Part shown: positions 1,508 to 7,877 of the stretch, in pieces | How the letters are laid out: each line of letters starts with the position of its first letter | How positions within the stretch are numbered: position 1 is the stretch's first letter | Origin: Arthrobacter silviterrae | GTDB lineage: Bacteria > Actinomycetota > Actinomycetes > Actinomycetales > Micrococcaceae | DNA length: 34,443 nt | NCBI RefSeq assembly: GCF_011045165.1 | Contig: NZ_JAAKZI010000038.1 | Span: 1-34,443 of the forward strand | Direction of reading: 5' to 3' | The notes under the pieces: generated by a model | What the model saw: only the letters and a program-made list of their open reading frames with translations | Database searches by the model: none | What the model was told of the DNA's origin: nothing | Translations under genes and position numbers: made by a program

Positions 1508-4500
1508 CTAAACGCCGGCCGCCTCCTGCACCACAGCCTCCCTGCCGTTCGCCAGCCCAAGCGACAGGTGGGTGTCAGCGGTCGCAGCCAGGCCGGCGTC
1601 ATGGGTCACCAGGACCACCGCGACATCGGCCAGGGAAGCGCGCAACTGTTCCACAAGTTCCTGCGATTCGTCCTCGCCCAGGTGCGCGGCCGGTTCATCG
1701 AGAAGCACGACGGCGGCCCCCGCCACGAGCGTCCGTGCCACCGACACGCGGGTCCGCTGCCCGCCGGAGAGATGATGGCCCCCCGGCCCAACCCGGGTCG
1801 CCAGGCCCTCCGGGAGCGCCCGGAACCACGGCCCGAGCCCCACGGTTTCCAGGGCTGTTTCCAACTCCCTGTCCGTGGGGGCGCTGGCGGCAGGGCGGGC
1901 CAGCGCGAGGTTGGAGCGCAGTGTCGAGTTGAAGAGATATGCCTCCTGGGGACACCAGGCAATCCGCGCCAGGGCCTGCGGCGACGCCGGCCCGCCGTTG
2001 ATGGTGTAGCTGCCACGTTCAGGCTTGAGGAAGCCGAGCAGCACGGCCAGCAGGGTCGATTTGCCCGCGCCGGAGGGCCCGCTGACACTCCACCACCGCC
2101 CGCGCTCCGTGCCCCCGCTGATGCCTGTGAACACCGGCTCCGGGGCGCCCGGGTACCGGGCCGTGATCCCATCCACGCGCACGGAGGCACCGGGATCCAT
2201 CTCAATGACACGGTCCGGAATGGCTGCGGGCGGTGCAGCCACCACCCCGCCTGCCCCCGTTGTGGCACTGTCCAGCAGCGGCATGGTCCGCGCCATCATG
2301 GTGCCCAGCACGGGCAACTGTTCCACGGCTTCAATGTACTGGCCCAGCGGTTCTGCCAGCGCCAGCATCAGCAGGGCCGCCACGGCCGCTGCTCGGGGGT
2401 CCGCCCCGGCGGCGATGGAGCATGCCGTCACGGCGACGGCGGCCGCCGACGTCAGGATCGACACGGCCGACTGGCCCAGTCCGTTGGCAAAGGCGAGGCG
2501 GCGCAACGGTGCGGAGACTGCCAGGTCGCGGGCGGCAAAGGCGCGGGCCTGGACCTCCCCCACCCCGTTGGCGGCCAGCTGGTCCGCTGCAGCCAGCAGG
2601 GTGGTGGCCCTGGACGCCAGCCAGGAACGGTGCACGGCGGCCGCAGCCGATGACCGGCGCTGGGCCGCGTACACCACCACGGGCAGCACCAGCAGCACCA
2701 GGACCCCCAGCAGGACCACGGGCCATGCGGCCGCCGGAACCAGCCACACCGTGGCGGCCAGCACCGCCAGAAACGAAAGGATGGCGGCCGGAATGGGCAC
2801 GGCAGCGCGGGGCAGCGCGTCCCGCAGCTCGTCGACGTCGGCCACCAGGGTCCCCAGGGAACCGCCCGAGCGGGTCAGCCGCCCCCAATGGCGCACGTTC
2901 GATCCCAGCGCGTCCCACAGCTTCAGCCGCAGGTCGGCGGCCCAGCGGAAGACGGCGTCGTGCGTCAGCAGGCGTTCGCTGTAGCGGAGCACGGAACGGC
3001 CCACGCCAAACGCCCGCACGCCAACAATGAGCGTCATGAGGTACATCATGGGCGGCTGGGCCGCGGCCCACACGATGAGCCAGCCGGAAACGCCGGACAA
3101 GGCAGCTGCGCTGAGTGTTGCAAGGGCGGAAACCGCAACACCGGCCAGGAAGCGGGGCGAGCGCAGAGGCAGCTGCCGGAGCCAGCGCCACTTGAATGTG
3201 GCCGGGCCCGCAAGGGCATGACCCGGCGCGGTGGGGGGAATTTTGGCGGCGGGTGTGCCGGAGCGCAAGGGCCCGGTCCCATGGGTTTCGGCAGGCGGAA
3301 CCACCGGCGAGACAGGCTCAAACACCGGGCTGGCAGGCGAAACCAGCGGGCCGGCAGGCTCAACCACCGGGCCGCGCAACAGGCCCGCCAGCGCCGAGTC
3401 ATGGGTGGCCACGACCAGGGCCACCGTGCCGCGCAGGGCACAGATGGCCCGGCGAACCATGTGGGCCGACACGGGATCCAGGTGGGCCGTGGGCTCGTCG
3501 AAGAGGACAAGTTCCACTGAAGGGTCGGTGGCGGTTCGCGCCAGCGCCCGGGCCACGGCCACGCGGCGCAGCTCCCCGGGGCTGCACTCAAGGGGGGAAC
3601 GAGCCGCCAGGTGGCCCGCATTGACTTGTTCCAGGGCCCATTGCACGGCACCGTCCGGCACCTCCAGGCCCAGCTGCCCGGCGGCGTAGAGGGCCACCTC
3701 GGCTGCCATGGTGTCTTCAGAAAAGACGGGATGCTGCGGCACCCAGGCAAGGGCATCCCGTGAGGCAGTGCGCAGCCTGCCGCTGACTTCGGCATCCCCC
3801 GGAAGCCCTGCCAACACCGCCAGGGCAGTGGACTTGCCCGTGCCGCTGGCGCCGGCGAGCACCAGCACGCCCCCGCGCGGCACCACAGCCGAGAAGCCGG
3901 ACAGGGCTGCCTCCGTCCGCCCCGGATACCGGACGCGCAGGTTCTCGGCCCGCACGACGGCGGCACCGGCGTCGGGCGCGGAAGCGGTGGCCTGGCGGGT
4001 GGCCGGGATGGCGACGGCCGCACCGGAGCCGGGAGCGGCCACAGGCCGGTCCGTGCCCAGGATCTCATTGACGCGGCGCAGTGCCTCGACGCCGTCCTCG
4101 CTGCCGTGATGGGCGGCGCCAACGTCGCGCAGCGGCCGGAAGCATTCGGGGGCCAGCATGAGGGCCAGGAGCCCCGCCTCGAGCGTCATGCCGCCGTAAA
4201 CCAGCCTGACGCCGATGAAGACGGCCACGACAGCCACCGAGATGGTGCTGATCAATTCCAGCGCCATGGATGAGAGGAAGGCGGTGCGGAGGGTGGCCAT
4301 GGTGGATTTGCGGTACTGCTCGGAGACGTCTGCGAGCGCCCGGCGCTGGGCCCCTGCACGCCTCAGGCCCACAAGCACGGGAAGGCCCCGGGCCAGCTCG
4401 AGGAGGTGGTTCGACAGCCTGTCCAGGCCCCGGGCAGCGAGCTCCACCCGGTCCTGGGTGTGGAAGCCGATCAGCACCATGAAGACCGGCACCAGCGGCA

Positions 4501-4984
4501 CGGTGAGTGCCACGACCAGGGCGCTGACCCAGTCGGTCAGCAGGATCTGCAGGCCGATGAGGGCGGGCAGCACGGCGCAGCTGACGAGTGCGGGCAGGTA
4601 CGCCGTGAAGTAGTTGTCCAGCCCGTCCAGCCCGCGGCTGGCCAGCATCCCTTCAGCACCGGTGCCGGTGCTGCCCGCACTGTTGCCGGACAGCCGGTGG
4701 GCCATGAGACGTGCCCGCAGTTCCTCCTTGGTGCCCAGGGCCGCCCGCCGCGCCAGCACCTGCTGGCCCCACACGGCAGCGGCCAGCGCGGCGGCGCCGA
4801 GCCCGCCCTGGATGGCCAGCCGCAACATCTCGGGCTGCCTCCCGCCGGCCCAGCCGCCCAGGGCGTGGGCCAGCGCGGCCATGAGGAGCACCAGGCCCAC
4901 GGCCTTGAGCGCGGCCAGGCCGGCGAGCCCGGCGAGAGCTATGCGGGTGCTCTTCCCGGCGGGCAGGGCGGGGCGGGGACTCAT
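1508..4984 (-). CDS. cydDC: Fused CydD-CydC thiol/heme ABC exporter required for cytochrome bd assembly
   Basis: The 1158-residue protein contains two complete ABC exporter halves in one chain. Half one has membrane helices in about residues 15-285, Walker A GASGTGKST (378-386) and Walker B LVLFDEPTAHLD. Half two has helices from about 610, Walker A GPSGAGKST, signature LSGGQRTRVSVARTL and Walker B VVLLDEPAAHL. The halves are joined by a Pro/Val/Ser-rich linker at about 540-595. In other bacteria CydD and CydC form a heterodimer that exports cysteine/glutathione or handles heme and is needed to mature cytochrome bd; fusions occur in actinobacteria. The first half has CSPGEL in place of LSGGQ, so the two ATP sites are probably unequal. 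The start was set at the ATG one base after the cydB stop; a longer in-frame extension would overlap cydB. Confidence 0.93.
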   Translation of the reverse strand: MSPRPALPAGKSTRIALAGLAGLAALKAVGLVLLMAALAHALGGWAGGRQPEMLRLAIQGGLGAAALAAAVWGQQVLARRAALGTKEELRARLMAHRLSGNSAGSTGTGAEGMLASRGLDGLDNYFTAYLPALVSCAVLPALIGLQILLTDWVSALVVALTVPLVPVFMVLIGFHTQDRVELAARGLDRLSNHLLELARGLPVLVGLRRAGAQRRALADVSEQYRKSTMATLRTAFLSSMALELISTISVAVVAVFIGVRLVYGGMTLEAGLLALMLAPECFRPLRDVGAAHHGSEDGVEALRRVNEILGTDRPVAAPGSGAAVAIPATRQATASAPDAGAAVVRAENLRVRYPGRTEAALSGFSAVVPRGGVLVLAGASGTGKSTALAVLAGLPGDAEVSGRLRTASRDALAWVPQHPVFSEDTMAAEVALYAAGQLGLEVPDGAVQWALEQVNAGHLAARSPLECSPGELRRVAVARALARTATDPSVELVLFDEPTAHLDPVSAHMVRRAICALRGTVALVVATHDSALAGLLRGPVVEPAGPLVSPASPVFEPVSPVVPPAETHGTGPLRSGTPAAKIPPTAPGHALAGPATFKWRWLRQLPLRSPRFLAGVAVSALATLSAAALSGVSGWLIVWAAAQPPMMYLMTLIVGVRAFGVGRSVLRYSERLLTHDAVFRWAADLRLKLWDALGSNVRHWGRLTRSGGSLGTLVADVDELRDALPRAAVPIPAAILSFLAVLAATVWLVPAAAWPVVLLGVLVLLVLPVVVYAAQRRSSAAAAVHRSWLASRATTLLAAADQLAANGVGEVQARAFAARDLAVSAPLRRLAFANGLGQSAVSILTSAAAVAVTACSIAAGADPRAAAVAALLMLALAEPLGQYIEAVEQLPVLGTMMARTMPLLDSATTGAGGVVAAPPAAIPDRVIEMDPGASVRVDGITARYPGAPEPVFTGISGGTERGRWWSVSGPSGAGKSTLLAVLLGFLKPERGSYTINGGPASPQALARIAWCPQEAYLFNSTLRSNLALARPAASAPTDRELETALETVGLGPWFRALPEGLATRVGPGGHHLSGGQRTRVSVARTLVAGAAVVLLDEPAAHLGEDESQELVEQLRASLADVAVVLVTHDAGLAATADTHLSLGLANGREAVVQEAAGV

Positions 4985-4985
4985 G

Positions 4986-6056
4986 TCAGGCTCCCCCTGC
5001 CGCGGCAACGCCCTTGCCTGTTGCGGAGGCCGGCCCGACGGCGGGGGCGAAGTCGTGCGGGTCCGGCAGGTGGGTGATGCTGATGCGCTTGCGGAAGATC
5101 CAGTAGGTCCAGGCCTGATAGGCCAGCACCAGCGGCACGCCCACGGCGGCCACAATGGTCATCAGTCCCAAGGTGTAGGCCGAGGAGGAGGCATTGGTGA
5201 CCGTGAGGTTCCAGGCGCTGTTGAGGGTGGACGGCAGCACCACGGGGAAGGTTGCACTGAAGATGGCCGTGCTGCCCAGCACCAGGAAAGCGCCCAGGGA
5301 CAAAAAGCTCAGCCCCTCCCTGTCCTTGCGGTTGGCCAGCCATGCCGCGGCTGCCGCCAGCACGGCAGCGGCGATCAGGGCCCAGCTGAAGGCTTTGCCA
5401 TTCTGGAGTGCCACCGCAATGGCCCAGGCCGCCATCGGCAGCAGAGCCGGAACCAGCCAACGGCCCACCAGGCGGCGGGCGCGGTGGCGGACGGCGCCGT
5501 CGGTCTTCAGGGCCAGGAAGGCGCCCGCCTGGAGGAGGCAGAAGCCCACCAGTGCCAGCCCGCCGAGCACTGCGTACCAGGTGAACCAGGCGAAGGGGCC
5601 GCCCACGCGGTCGCCGTTGGCATTCAGGGGCAGGCCGGTGGTGGTCAGGGCCAGCATGGCACCGATGCCAAAGGCAGCCACGAAGGAACCGACGGCGATG
5701 GCCCAGTCCCAGGTCCTGCGCCATATGTCCGAGTGGACCTTGCCGCGGTATTCAAATGCCACGGCCCTGAAGATGAGGGCCAACAGCACAAACACCAGGG
5801 GGATGTAGAGGGAGGAGAACAGTGAGGCGTACCAGAACGGGAAGGCGGCAAATGTGGCGCCGCCGGCGGTGATCAGCCACACCTCATTGCCGTCCCACAC
5901 GGGGCCCACGGTGTTCAGCAGCAGGCGCCGTTCCTTTTCGTCCCGGGCAAACGTCTTCATGAGCATTCCCACGCCAAGGTCGAATCCCTCGAGGAAGAGG
6001 TATCCGGTCCACAGCACGGCAATGAGAATGAACCACAGGGTGGGGAGGAAGTCCAT
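4986..6056 (-). CDS. cydB: Cytochrome bd ubiquinol/menaquinol oxidase subunit II
   Basis: The 356-residue polytopic protein starts MDFLPTLWFILIAVLWTGY and continues FLEGFDLGVGML, the characteristic N-terminus of CydB. The following GPVWDGNEVWLITAGGATFA block is also diagnostic. CydB packs against CydA in the cytoplasmic membrane to form the quinol:O2 oxidoreductase. The gene lies 72 bases after cydA and one base before cydDC on the same strand, so the three are almost certainly one transcript. The gap to cydA holds a GC-rich stem-loop (6107-6129). Confidence 0.96.
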   Translation of the reverse strand: MDFLPTLWFILIAVLWTGYLFLEGFDLGVGMLMKTFARDEKERRLLLNTVGPVWDGNEVWLITAGGATFAAFPFWYASLFSSLYIPLVFVLLALIFRAVAFEYRGKVHSDIWRRTWDWAIAVGSFVAAFGIGAMLALTTTGLPLNANGDRVGGPFAWFTWYAVLGGLALVGFCLLQAGAFLALKTDGAVRHRARRLVGRWLVPALLPMAAWAIAVALQNGKAFSWALIAAAVLAAAAAWLANRKDREGLSFLSLGAFLVLGSTAIFSATFPVVLPSTLNSAWNLTVTNASSSAYTLGLMTIVAAVGVPLVLAYQAWTYWIFRKRISITHLPDPHDFAPAVGPASATGKGVAAAGGA

Positions 6057-6106: not shown

Positions 6107-6129
6107 GCCCGGCCGGCGGGCGGCCGGGC
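6107..6129 (-). other. GC-rich stem-loop between cydA and cydB
   Basis: Nine bases GCCCGGCCG (6107-6115) pair perfectly with 6121-6129 across a five-base loop, immediately downstream of the cydA stop. There is no T tract on either strand, so it is unlikely to end transcription. An mRNA-stabilising or processing role between cydA and cydB is possible but not shown. Confidence 0.45.
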
Positions 6130-7724
6130 TAGTAGGCAAAGGCAAGGACATCGCCGCCGCCCTCCCCGCCCGGGTGCGTGCCGCCGTCGTCCTTCCCGCC
6201 TGGGCCGCCCGGATGGGCCAGCTCCGGCATGGCGGAGACGGTCCCGCCGCGGATGTACTTGACCAGCAGCACCACCTCCACCACCAGCAGGACGGCGTAG
6301 ACGGTGGCCAGGGACGCCAGCGAGAAGACCATCTCCCCCGCCGAGACACCCGGCGAGACGGCTGCCGCGGTGAACATGAACACCTGGTCAACGCCGCTCA
6401 TGGAGGGATTGGGGGCCACCACAAAGGGCTGGCGGCCCATTTCGGTGAAGATCCAGCCCGCGGCGTTGGCACCAAACGGGGCCAGGATGCCGAACAGGGC
6501 CAGCCGCATGAGCCACTTGGCCTGGGGAACGGTGCCCTTGCGGGTGATCCACAGGGCCACCGCGGCGGCCAGGGCTGCCAGCCCGCCGAAGCCGATCATC
6601 ATGCGGAATCCCCAGTAGGTGACGGGCATGACCGGGACATAGTTGATTTCCTGGCCGGCCCGCGTTCCGTACAGCGGGTCGTCGGGCAGGTACTTGCCAT
6701 ACTTTGCCTGGTATTCGGGCACCAGCGTGTTGACGCCCTTGATGTCCGTGGTGAAGTCGTTGTGGGCCAGGAAGGACAGCAGCCCGGGGATTTCCATGAC
6801 TGCCACCACCTTGGAGCAGTCGCGGCTGCTGAGATCGCCGACGGACAGGACGGAGAAGCTGGTGCCGTCGTGGCAGGCGGCCTCGGCGGCGGCCATCTTC
6901 ATGGGCTGCTGTTCAAACATGAGCTTGCCCGACAGGTCACCGGACACGGCGGAGCCGGCAAAGGCGATCATGGCGACGACGGCGCCGATGCGCAGCGACT
7001 TGATCCACACGGCGTGGTCCCGCTTGTCGCGGCCCGGGATGGTGGCTGATTCGCCGACGATAACGTGCCCGCGGGCGTCGACGGTGTCGATGCCGTCACG
7101 ACGGCGGCGCCACAGGTGGTACCACGCGATGCCCAGCAGGAAGCCGCCGGCCACGGCCAGGGCGCCGGTGATGGTGTGGAAGAACGCCACCAGGGCAGTG
7201 TTGTTGGTAAATACGGCCCAGGCATCCACCATCTGGGGGTGCCCGTTGACCATCCTCACGCCGACGGGGTGCTGCATCCATGAGTTGGCGACCAGGATGA
7301 AGTAGGCGGACAGGATGGACCCGCACACGGCGATCCACAGGCAGGCCAGGTGGATCTTTGCCGGCAGCCTCTTCCAGCCGAAGATCCACAGCCCCAGGAA
7401 GGTCGACTCAACGAAGAAGGCCAGCAGTGACTCCATGGCCAGCGGGGCGCCAAACACATCGCCCACAAAGCGGCTGTATTCACTCCACGCCATCCCGAAC
7501 TGGAACTCCTGGACGATGCCCGTGGCCACACCCATGATGAAGTTGATCAGGAACAGCTTGCCCCAAAACTTCGTCGCCCGCAGGTACTCTTCCCTGCCGG
7601 TGCGGTGCCAGGTGGTCTGCAGGATCGCCACCAGGGCCCCGAGCCCGATGGTCAGGGGGACCATCAGGAAGTGGTACACCGTCACTATCCCGAACTGCCA
7701 CCTGGCAATGTCCAGTGCTTCCAT
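6129..7724 (-). CDS. cydA: Cytochrome bd ubiquinol/menaquinol oxidase subunit I
   Basis: The 531-residue protein begins MEALDIARWQFGIVTVYHF, the standard CydA start. Visible ligands are His18 (E. coli His19), His183 in FFHTITGAL (E. coli His186) and Met376 in FRMMIG (E. coli Met393). Glu98 and Glu106 of the AMESLLAFFVEST helix and the quinol-loop pair Lys276/Glu281 (KMAAAEA) are present. It oxidises quinol and reduces O2 to water with high affinity. The start was placed at the ATG at 7724, with AGG seven bases upstream; an in-frame GTG at 7742 adds six residues and is less likely. It is first in the cydA-cydB-cydDC-GNAT run. Confidence 0.96.
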   Translation of the reverse strand: MEALDIARWQFGIVTVYHFLMVPLTIGLGALVAILQTTWHRTGREEYLRATKFWGKLFLINFIMGVATGIVQEFQFGMAWSEYSRFVGDVFGAPLAMESLLAFFVESTFLGLWIFGWKRLPAKIHLACLWIAVCGSILSAYFILVANSWMQHPVGVRMVNGHPQMVDAWAVFTNNTALVAFFHTITGALAVAGGFLLGIAWYHLWRRRRDGIDTVDARGHVIVGESATIPGRDKRDHAVWIKSLRIGAVVAMIAFAGSAVSGDLSGKLMFEQQPMKMAAAEAACHDGTSFSVLSVGDLSSRDCSKVVAVMEIPGLLSFLAHNDFTTDIKGVNTLVPEYQAKYGKYLPDDPLYGTRAGQEINYVPVMPVTYWGFRMMIGFGGLAALAAAVALWITRKGTVPQAKWLMRLALFGILAPFGANAAGWIFTEMGRQPFVVAPNPSMSGVDQVFMFTAAAVSPGVSAGEMVFSLASLATVYAVLLVVEVVLLVKYIRGGTVSAMPELAHPGGPGGKDDGGTHPGGEGGGDVLAFAY

Positions 7725-7767: not shown

Positions 7768-7784
7768 TTCTACATTATGTAGAA
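7768..7784. promoter_or_regulatory. Operator dyad 1 in the blaI-cydA intergenic region
   Basis: TTCTACATTATGTAGAA is a perfect 8+1+8 palindrome. It contains the TACA/TGTA half-sites known for BlaI/MecI operators. It sits over the predicted cydA transcription start. Its centre is 24 bases from that of the second dyad, so two repressor dimers could bind on roughly the same helix face. Confidence 0.7.
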
Positions 7785-7790
7785 GTCTAA

Positions 7791-7809
7791 GTTCTACCCT
7801 GCGTAGAAC
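7791..7809. promoter_or_regulatory. Operator dyad 2 in the blaI-cydA intergenic region
   Basis: The arms GTTCTAC and GTAGAAC are perfect inverted repeats around a five-base centre. They share the TTCTAC-N5-GTAGAA pattern with dyad 1. This copy contains the predicted cydA -10 hexamer. A further half-site CTCTAC occurs at 7855-7860, just before the blaI ribosome binding site, which would fit autoregulation. Confidence 0.7.
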
Positions 7810-7820
7810 ATTGCTGTCAA
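7791..7820 (-). promoter_or_regulatory. Predicted sigma-A promoter of the cyd operon
   Basis: On the minus strand a consensus TTGACA (7820-7815) is followed after 18 bases by TAGAAC (7796-7791). Transcription would start near 7784, about 60 bases before the cydA ATG. The -10 hexamer lies within one operator dyad and the predicted start point touches the other, a layout typical of repression by steric block. Confidence 0.6.
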
Positions 7821-7877
7821 AACCTGTACATTGGACTTGGAAACAAAAGTTTTGCTCTACGAATAGAAGGATCTTGC

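Follow-up and report, generated by a model that had tools for sequence, protein, structure and literature searches.

A BlaI-type repressor and its membrane protease partner look like a controller of respiration in Arthrobacter and related soil bacteria

In its bare form, a link between BlaI repressors and respiration is already known in Mycobacterium tuberculosis. There, BlaI is reported on the promoters of cytochrome bd and ATP synthase (PMC5473688, citing Sala 2009), and its binding at the Rv1303-atp promoter has been demonstrated together with repression (PMC12565901). The gene sigC is counted in the BlaI regulon (PMC8265638), and SigC prevents copper starvation (PMC7924339). PMC5473688 describes the mycobacterial partner protein, BlaR, as having no antibiotic sensor and its signal as unknown. 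In other actinobacteria, terminal oxidase genes are also under the control of HrrSA (PMC7337898) and of Rex and Crp (PMC7739888). In the open-licence PMC literature we found no earlier description of the arrangement analysed below, that is, a divergent cydA-blaI module with a tandem operator, the joint loss of operator and BlaI, and a wider regulon of haem, oxidase and Hmp genes. The main text of a study of cydAB induction in M. smegmatis makes no mention of BlaI. For the Arthrobacter locus, we consider it very likely that BlaI, bound to two dyads in the intergenic gap, represses both cydABDC and itself and governs a respiratory and haem regulon, and that the protease, most likely, relieves this repression.

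The window, by which we mean the whole 34,443-bp stretch of Arthrobacter silviterrae DNA analysed, carries the cyd genes and the divergently oriented blaI-protease pair (Table 1). In the gap between them, TTCTAC-N5-GTAGAA occurs exactly at two places, 24 bp apart from start to start. These are the only exact copies in the window, and 0 of 100 dinucleotide-preserving shuffles of the window contained one. The original prediction of two matching palindromes in this gap proved accurate. The additional half-site that it proposed was rejected: the match near 7855-7869 needs three mismatches, is one of nine such matches spread over the window, and is unconserved in the alignment, where the region extends into the presumed ribosome-binding region. 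The shuffles held a mean of 1.62 matches at three or fewer mismatches, fewer than the nine three-mismatch matches of the window. Among the neighbouring genes, a single ORF of more than 1,100 amino acids joins cydD and cydC; it reaches 5155 when called mechanically and probably starts at the ATG at 4984. P0006 (9421-11535, plus strand) was discarded as a shadow ORF, the real gene being that of a gyrase-B-type topoisomerase subunit on the opposite strand.

Table 1. Features of the window and further dyads elsewhere in the A. silviterrae genome
Feature	Position	Strand	Basis or remark
Operator dyad 1, TTCTACATTATGTAGAA (TTCTAC-ATTAT-GTAGAA)	7768-7784	.	12/12 half-site bases invariant in 12/12 sequences; covers inferred cydA start point
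Operator dyad 2, TTCTACCCTGCGTAGAA (TTCTAC-CCTGC-GTAGAA)	7792-7808	.	Half-sites invariant in 12/12 sequences; covers inferred cydA -10 and inferred weak blaI -35
Inferred cydA promoter, TTGACA (7820-7815), 18 nt, TAGAAC (7796-7791)	7791-7820	-	Read by eye
Inferred blaI -10, TACATT	7827-7832	+	Conserved GTAnATT block in alignment
cydA, cytochrome bd subunit I	6129-7724	-	PF01654, 8.5e-150
cydB, cytochrome bd subunit II	4986-6056	-	TIGR00203
Fused cydDC, single ORF	1508-4984	-	TIGR02857 and TIGR02868 in same protein
blaI, BlaI/MecI/CopY-type repressor, 126 aa	7878-8258	+	Pfam Penicillinase_R, 1.7e-19
Membrane zinc protease, BlaR1-like, without beta-lactam sensor, 317 aa	8291-9244	+	Motifs, fold
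Dyad before hmp, flavohaemoglobin	own genome		
Dyad before cytochrome b561-molybdopterin oxidoreductase	own genome		
Dyad before small membrane protein without family assignment	own genome		
Dyad before hemQ	own genome		
Dyad before fatty acid desaturase	own genome		
Dyad before ABC transporter divergent from SufR-like/sufB cluster	own genome		
Dyad before TlpA-like thioredoxin	own genome		
Dyad before qcrC-like cytochrome c, adjoining ctaE	own genome		
Dyad in atp leader, between wecA-like gene and atpI-like/atpB genes	own genome, L017:5116		

Promoter positions are less firmly placed than the dyads. A consensus promoter scan found no promoter, and a reading by eye agrees with the original placement of the dyads on the cydA -10 and start point. 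We hold this placement as provisional because the TTGACA -35 is kept in just 6 of 12 aligned gap sequences, the window's own among them.

Conservation singles out the dyads. When the gap of the window was aligned with those of 11 relatives (12 sequences), none of the 24 half-site positions varied, in contrast to the 5-base spacers and the majority of the remaining columns, which drift; mean column identity is 56%. Among 30 loci of the family Micrococcaceae, the window's own included, 28 combine a divergent cydA with two or more exact dyads, and in 26 of these two of the dyads stand 21-26 bp from each other; the 2 loci without an adjacent cydA still have one dyad before blaI. We also read 80 named loci, the best 80 of 384 confirmed, which represent the closest relatives (mostly Arthrobacter, Pseudarthrobacter and Paenarthrobacter) and overlap with the genomes of the 120-genome set discussed below. 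Among these best 80 of 384, a divergent cydA with at least two exact dyads is present in 78, always with a first gap of 23-26 bp, and one dyad is retained before blaI in the 2 that lack an adjacent cydA. The region upstream of blaI holds at least one exact dyad, and a protease gene follows blaI, at all 80 loci. Exact dyads number two in 19 of the 78 and three in 59. The three-dyad loci have a longer intergenic region (256-431 bp), with the pair towards cydA and a third dyad towards blaI (87-100 bp beyond the pair in 55/59), as would be expected for two separated promoters. For the original prediction, missing dyads in relatives with the divergent gene order would have counted against the idea; close relatives keep them, and we saw no divergent locus without dyads among the Micrococcaceae loci read. 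One record titled Sporosarcina beigongshangi (NZ_JADHDY010000017.1) contains an Arthrobacter-type blaI-cyd locus with a BlaI 89% identical, and is probably mislabelled or contaminated.

The dyads track both BlaI and cydA. Two genomes (G004 and G035) have cydA and blaI at separate places; in both, the pair, 24 or 25 bp apart, stands just upstream of the distant cydA, and one dyad stands before blaI as well. A set of 120 genomes comprises 104 with a close BlaI, 4 with a distant BlaI only and 12 without a match at E <= 1e-10. The 104 contain 557 exact sites (mean 5.36), against 46 for the pattern read backwards, although one of them, G090, has none; the 4 genomes with distant BlaI contain 4 exact sites and the 12 without a BlaI match contain 1. 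A full cydA is retained in seven of these 12; no dyad at two or fewer mismatches lies closer than 600 bp to it in any of them. Four Micrococcaceae genomes with a diverged BlaI (53-58% identical) have a single cyd dyad each instead of the pair, exact in three and with one mismatch in the fourth. Both states, BlaI with dyad and neither, occur inside two genera. We regard this shared absence as the strongest evidence that BlaI reads TTCTAC-N5-GTAGAA sites. Taken with conservation and with the fact that the pair follows cydA, it supports the original assignment of the dyads to BlaI-family operators on the cyd promoter. In other words, the two dyads are very probably docking sites for the adjacent BlaI-type repressor, and the operator pair appears to be real, well conserved, rightly attributed by that prediction and part of a wider respiratory regulon.

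Beyond the family, we inspected 40 genomes from other families (39 genera), hand-picked among the matches listed from the 156 of 246 genomes with a BlaI match; family f22, for example, was left out, and second BlaI copies outside the listed matches were not considered. Among the matches listed, blaI adjoins cydA in 18 of the 40, a figure that may be low for these genomes and is not a class-wide rate. In 17 of the 18, blaI is divergent and less than 1 kb from cydA; in the other (G191) the two genes share a strand and flank the protease gene. From the 21 genomes where a cydA lies elsewhere we took 20 upstream regions (one cydA each, G299 left out). The pattern T[ACT]CTAC-N5-GTAG[AGT]A, chosen after sites near blaI in families f10 and f27 had been seen, occurs at one mismatch or fewer in 17 of the 20 (8 exact) and in none of 400 base-shuffled copies of these regions; the other 3 have no such dyad at that threshold. 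In these distant families the expectation that divergent order goes with dyads stood for most loci and failed at one (L158, family f6), which has no dyad at one mismatch or fewer; two more (L163 of f23 and L167 of f38) have one-mismatch dyads only. Half-sites vary, with TACTAC or TCCTAC in f27 (L165) and TACTAC in the cyd regions of f10, which is probably Mycobacteriaceae and where the listed blaI and cydA were not adjacent in the four genomes tested. Five loci of family f4 (L150, L151, L153-L155) have a cydA of a different subfamily (42-45% identical), yet keep the blaI neighbour and the dyads. There, it would seem, the oxidase was swapped and the switch was kept. The BlaI-cyd link extends well past Micrococcaceae, and may be class-wide.

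The repressor itself is readily classified. BlaI scores 70.7 bits against Penicillinase_R (PF03965, cut-off 22.6) and is the single match to this family in the genome at E <= 0.001. Searched as a single sequence, it has one PDB match at E <= 0.001, namely 2g9w (E 2.9e-16, residues 3-123), titled conserved hypothetical protein and presumably M. tuberculosis BlaI; a profile search retrieved MecI (E 2.5e-4). Against the CopY/TcrY model TIGR02698 it reaches 23.5 bits, where the cut-off is 121.95. Since none of 16 aligned sequences contains a cysteine, BlaI is without a cysteine metal site, and we rejected CopY-type metal sensing by BlaI on this ground.

The protease (P0002) has an intact site, H182EETH with E223xxxD227 (E223-x-x-A-D227), in which HExxH, E223 and D227 are invariant in 33/33 sequences. 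HExxH and ExxAD are present in all 37 relatives examined, whose proteins measure 250-407 aa with starts chosen by script. The spacing from HExxH to E is 41 residues, as in BlaR1 (H201 and E242; PMC9834060). The Pfam M56 score of 22.1 bits is below the cut-off of 31 and the M48 cut-off is passed; among the 33 relatives at E <= 0.001, M56 is matched in 25 and M48 in all 33. The divergent pair was originally described as a BlaI repressor and an M56 protease, of which the first part is confirmed and the second is favoured by BlaR1-like motif spacing and best fold matches but falls short by the Pfam threshold. In the AlphaFold2 model (pLDDT 92.4) the last predicted helix spans residues 288-315 and the protein ends at 317; the chain stops two residues past this helix and includes no penicillin-binding sensor domain. 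Foldseek places BlaR1 chains at the top (8exs, probability 1.00, E 1.8e-3, with a modest TM of 0.40) and Ste24p and ZMPSTE24 close behind. We base the relation to BlaR1 on fold and motif spacing because a profile search from the protease alignment gave M48 peptidases and weak matches only. The motif spacing, the model's fold matches and the absence of a sensor domain together suggest a protein that works like the protease module of BlaR1, and not as a beta-lactam receptor.

One residue of the protease deserves attention. C152, in the motif A-Y-C-x-P, is invariant in 33/33 sequences and lies in a strand 30 residues before HExxH; an aligned M48 peptidase has alanine there. It is a candidate redox, NO or metal switch. 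Because C152 is invariant and BlaI is free of cysteine, the protease would be the better sensor candidate of the two. This bears on the idea that BlaI controls cyd while the protease is dispensable, the sensor being BlaI itself, another protease or a small ligand. There is a precedent in CopY, a BlaI-related repressor that binds metal directly (PMC5772342). We nevertheless judge this unlikely, given the missing cysteine in BlaI, the protease gene behind blaI at every one of the named loci (best 80 of 384) and the motifs kept in all 37 relatives.

A second possibility is the classic beta-lactam response, in which cell-wall stress signals through the pair and respiration is a side target. M. tuberculosis BlaI does repress blaC, amoxicillin-clavulanate alters the expression of cydAB and atp genes in that species (PMC8265638, PMC5473688), and the same scheme has been proposed for its beta-lactam tolerance. 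Against this, the window protease has no sensor domain, the mycobacterial BlaR lacks one as well according to the text cited (PMC5473688), and no beta-lactamase occurs among the site-adjacent genes of the A. silviterrae genome that were checked by Pfam. The beta-lactam-linked switch of the original prediction accordingly finds no counterpart here; we rejected it as the main function, and regard the scheme as a whole as improbable.

Control of respiration by BlaI would, in our preferred reading, reach well beyond cyd. An exact match occurs 5 times in the A. silviterrae genome, and the reversed pattern used as control matches once. At one mismatch or fewer the genome has 11 dyads, nine of them (3 exact and 6 one-mismatch) beyond the cyd pair; the backward control also gives 11, and we therefore set this number aside and argue the regulon from location and conservation. 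Each of the 11 dyads falls between genes or no more than 90 nt from where a called gene begins, compared to 1 of the 11 control matches, the other 10 being inside genes. For ten of the 11 the distance to a start is about 70 bp at most. This count takes in the site L003 on the premise that a later ATG is the true start; with the start as called, L003 would fall in the opening 24 nt of the ORF. Genes at the sites were called with a GC3-based ORF caller; 46 locus proteins were checked by Pfam, and tblastn was used for the neighbours hmp, hemQ, membrane protein and ccs; the names atpI, wecA-like, ctaB and hemQ were read from sequence or Pfam family.

Several of these sites are conserved. Among 16 relatives hand-picked from the 120 genomes, the ABC/suf dyad is present in 14 and absent at two or fewer mismatches in 2, and the atp dyad is present in 15 of the 16 atp leaders (L186-L201). 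The atp dyad differs from the other sites in its distance to the gene, with about 570 bp between it and the atpI-like ORF downstream. All 15 copies depart from the pattern at the same single base pair, so that one half-site ends in ATAGAA (or, read from the opposite strand, is TTCTAT), which suggests that this site may be deliberately kept weaker. In five other relatives, the hmp and hemQ dyads are each found in 5/5, the small membrane protein dyad in 4/5 and that of the histidine phosphatase/TlpA pair in 3/5. Three genomes examined for their many sites (G012, G008 and G060, with G012 alone from genus g13) add hemA/hemE, ctaC (COX2), SURF1, CtaG/CopD, CopC, sdhC and a UbiA-family gene that is probably ctaB. 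Other targets fit poorly: the desaturase, isocitrate lyase, membrane proteins without assignment, a DnaJ-C28-domain gene and a dyad that stands after an HU-like gene.

Some further sites were seen in passing. Five genomes of genus g13 (G012, G042, G066, G089, G107) have 9-15 exact dyads each, an expanded regulon. The small membrane protein forms a family by tblastn homology, with a dyad just upstream in several relatives (L014:5060-5536, L050:4107-4514, L058 near 3619-3978, L061 near 4076-4411, L064:3644-4033, L207:1009-1437 and L212 near 1119-1496). Two members tested had no Pfam match, and the protein is possibly a respiratory assembly factor. A gene read as truncated-globin-like, without a Pfam match (L068:3625-4050), has an exact dyad just upstream (L068:4059-4075) and adjoins a pyridoxamine-oxidase-like gene; another gene of the latter kind has a dyad in L054.

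These sites speak against the self-contained module of the original prediction, both through the nine further dyads of the same genome and through those that relatives carry at genes for haem, cytochrome oxidase and ATP synthase. A strictly local system, in which BlaI and the protease control cydABDC and themselves while the other dyads are accidental or serve different regulators, would account for the densest dyad cluster being at cyd and for a one-mismatch count no higher than the control. It accounts poorly for the location of all 11 dyads, for the conservation of the hmp, hemQ, ABC/suf and atp sites, and for the near disappearance of dyads genome-wide where BlaI has no match (1 in 12 genomes), and we consider it very improbable. 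That the dyads belong to another regulator sharing these promoters, such as Rex or Crp, which control cydAB in other actinobacteria (PMC7739888), or an Rrf2-family protein encoded immediately before hmp and its dyad, is hardly credible, as missing dyads track missing BlaI and the region upstream of blaI holds dyads even where cydA is elsewhere.

From the operators, their conservation and loss, the motif-defined regulon and the protease site, we infer the following sequence of binding, repression, signal and cleavage for the respiratory switch. Two BlaI dimers, sitting 24 bp from each other, would occupy the cydA promoter and reach into that of the divergent blaI, and by blocking RNA polymerase at cydA and blaI would repress both. 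The same BlaI would bind CTAC-N5-GTAG dyads before scattered respiratory and haem genes; since dyads precede such genes, BlaI may be seen as a regulator of respiratory-chain assembly. When respiration is impaired, the membrane protease, a BlaR1-type gluzincin without the penicillin-binding sensor, would most likely cut BlaI. Candidate signals are NO, low O2, shortage of haem or copper, and loss of electron flow. Cleavage would then derepress cytochrome bd, haem supply, NO defence and the remaining targets together.

A more far-reaching version holds that in actinobacteria the BlaI-M56 pair originally served respiration, not beta-lactam resistance, and that the pair is a class-wide master switch for building the aerobic chain with a C152-gated protease as its sensor. 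Oxidation, nitrosylation or metal binding at C152, in the strand next to the active site, would gate the cleavage of BlaI, and the targets would be cytochrome bd, bc-aa3, haem, cytochrome c maturation, ATP synthase and NO defence. We offer this version tentatively, as a possibility more doubtful than probable.

What, then, might the pair report on? The linkage to cyd in many families, the absence of the operator without BlaI and the haem, oxidase, Fe-S and ATP synthase targets argue for a switch that reads the respiratory chain. The unexplained signal of the sensor-less mycobacterial BlaR would thereby receive a simple reading, namely the state of that chain. Annotation as penicillinase repressor and BlaR1 can mislead surveys of resistance. 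Since the same dyads precede other respiratory genes in related soil bacteria, this BlaI-type pair looks like a respiration controller, and the question becomes directly testable in these harmless organisms.

How does the locus compare with described systems? The CopY/TcrY copper repressors belong to the same superfamily, as the weak TIGR02698 score reflects, but BlaI here has no cysteines and has a protease gene as partner. Rex, HrrSA and Crp share the control of terminal oxidase genes but are other proteins with another mode of signalling; to our knowledge, none of these systems pairs a BlaI repressor with a membrane protease. The BlaI-BlaR1 and MecI-MecR1 systems of Staphylococcus aureus resemble the pair in repressor family, in BlaR1 as top fold match and in the 41-residue HExxH-E spacing; they differ in that the Arthrobacter protease has no penicillin-binding sensor and that no bla or mec target was seen, cytochrome bd and respiration genes taking their place. 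A further close system is BlaI-BlaR of M. tuberculosis (Rv1846c-Rv1845c), with the 2g9w match to the repressor and a protease that is likewise sensor-less. In contrast to that system, blaI here is divergent from cydA, the operator is a tandem one with the half-site TTCTAC, and in place of a beta-lactamase, none of which was seen as a target, the putative targets include genes for haem, cytochrome c maturation and Hmp.
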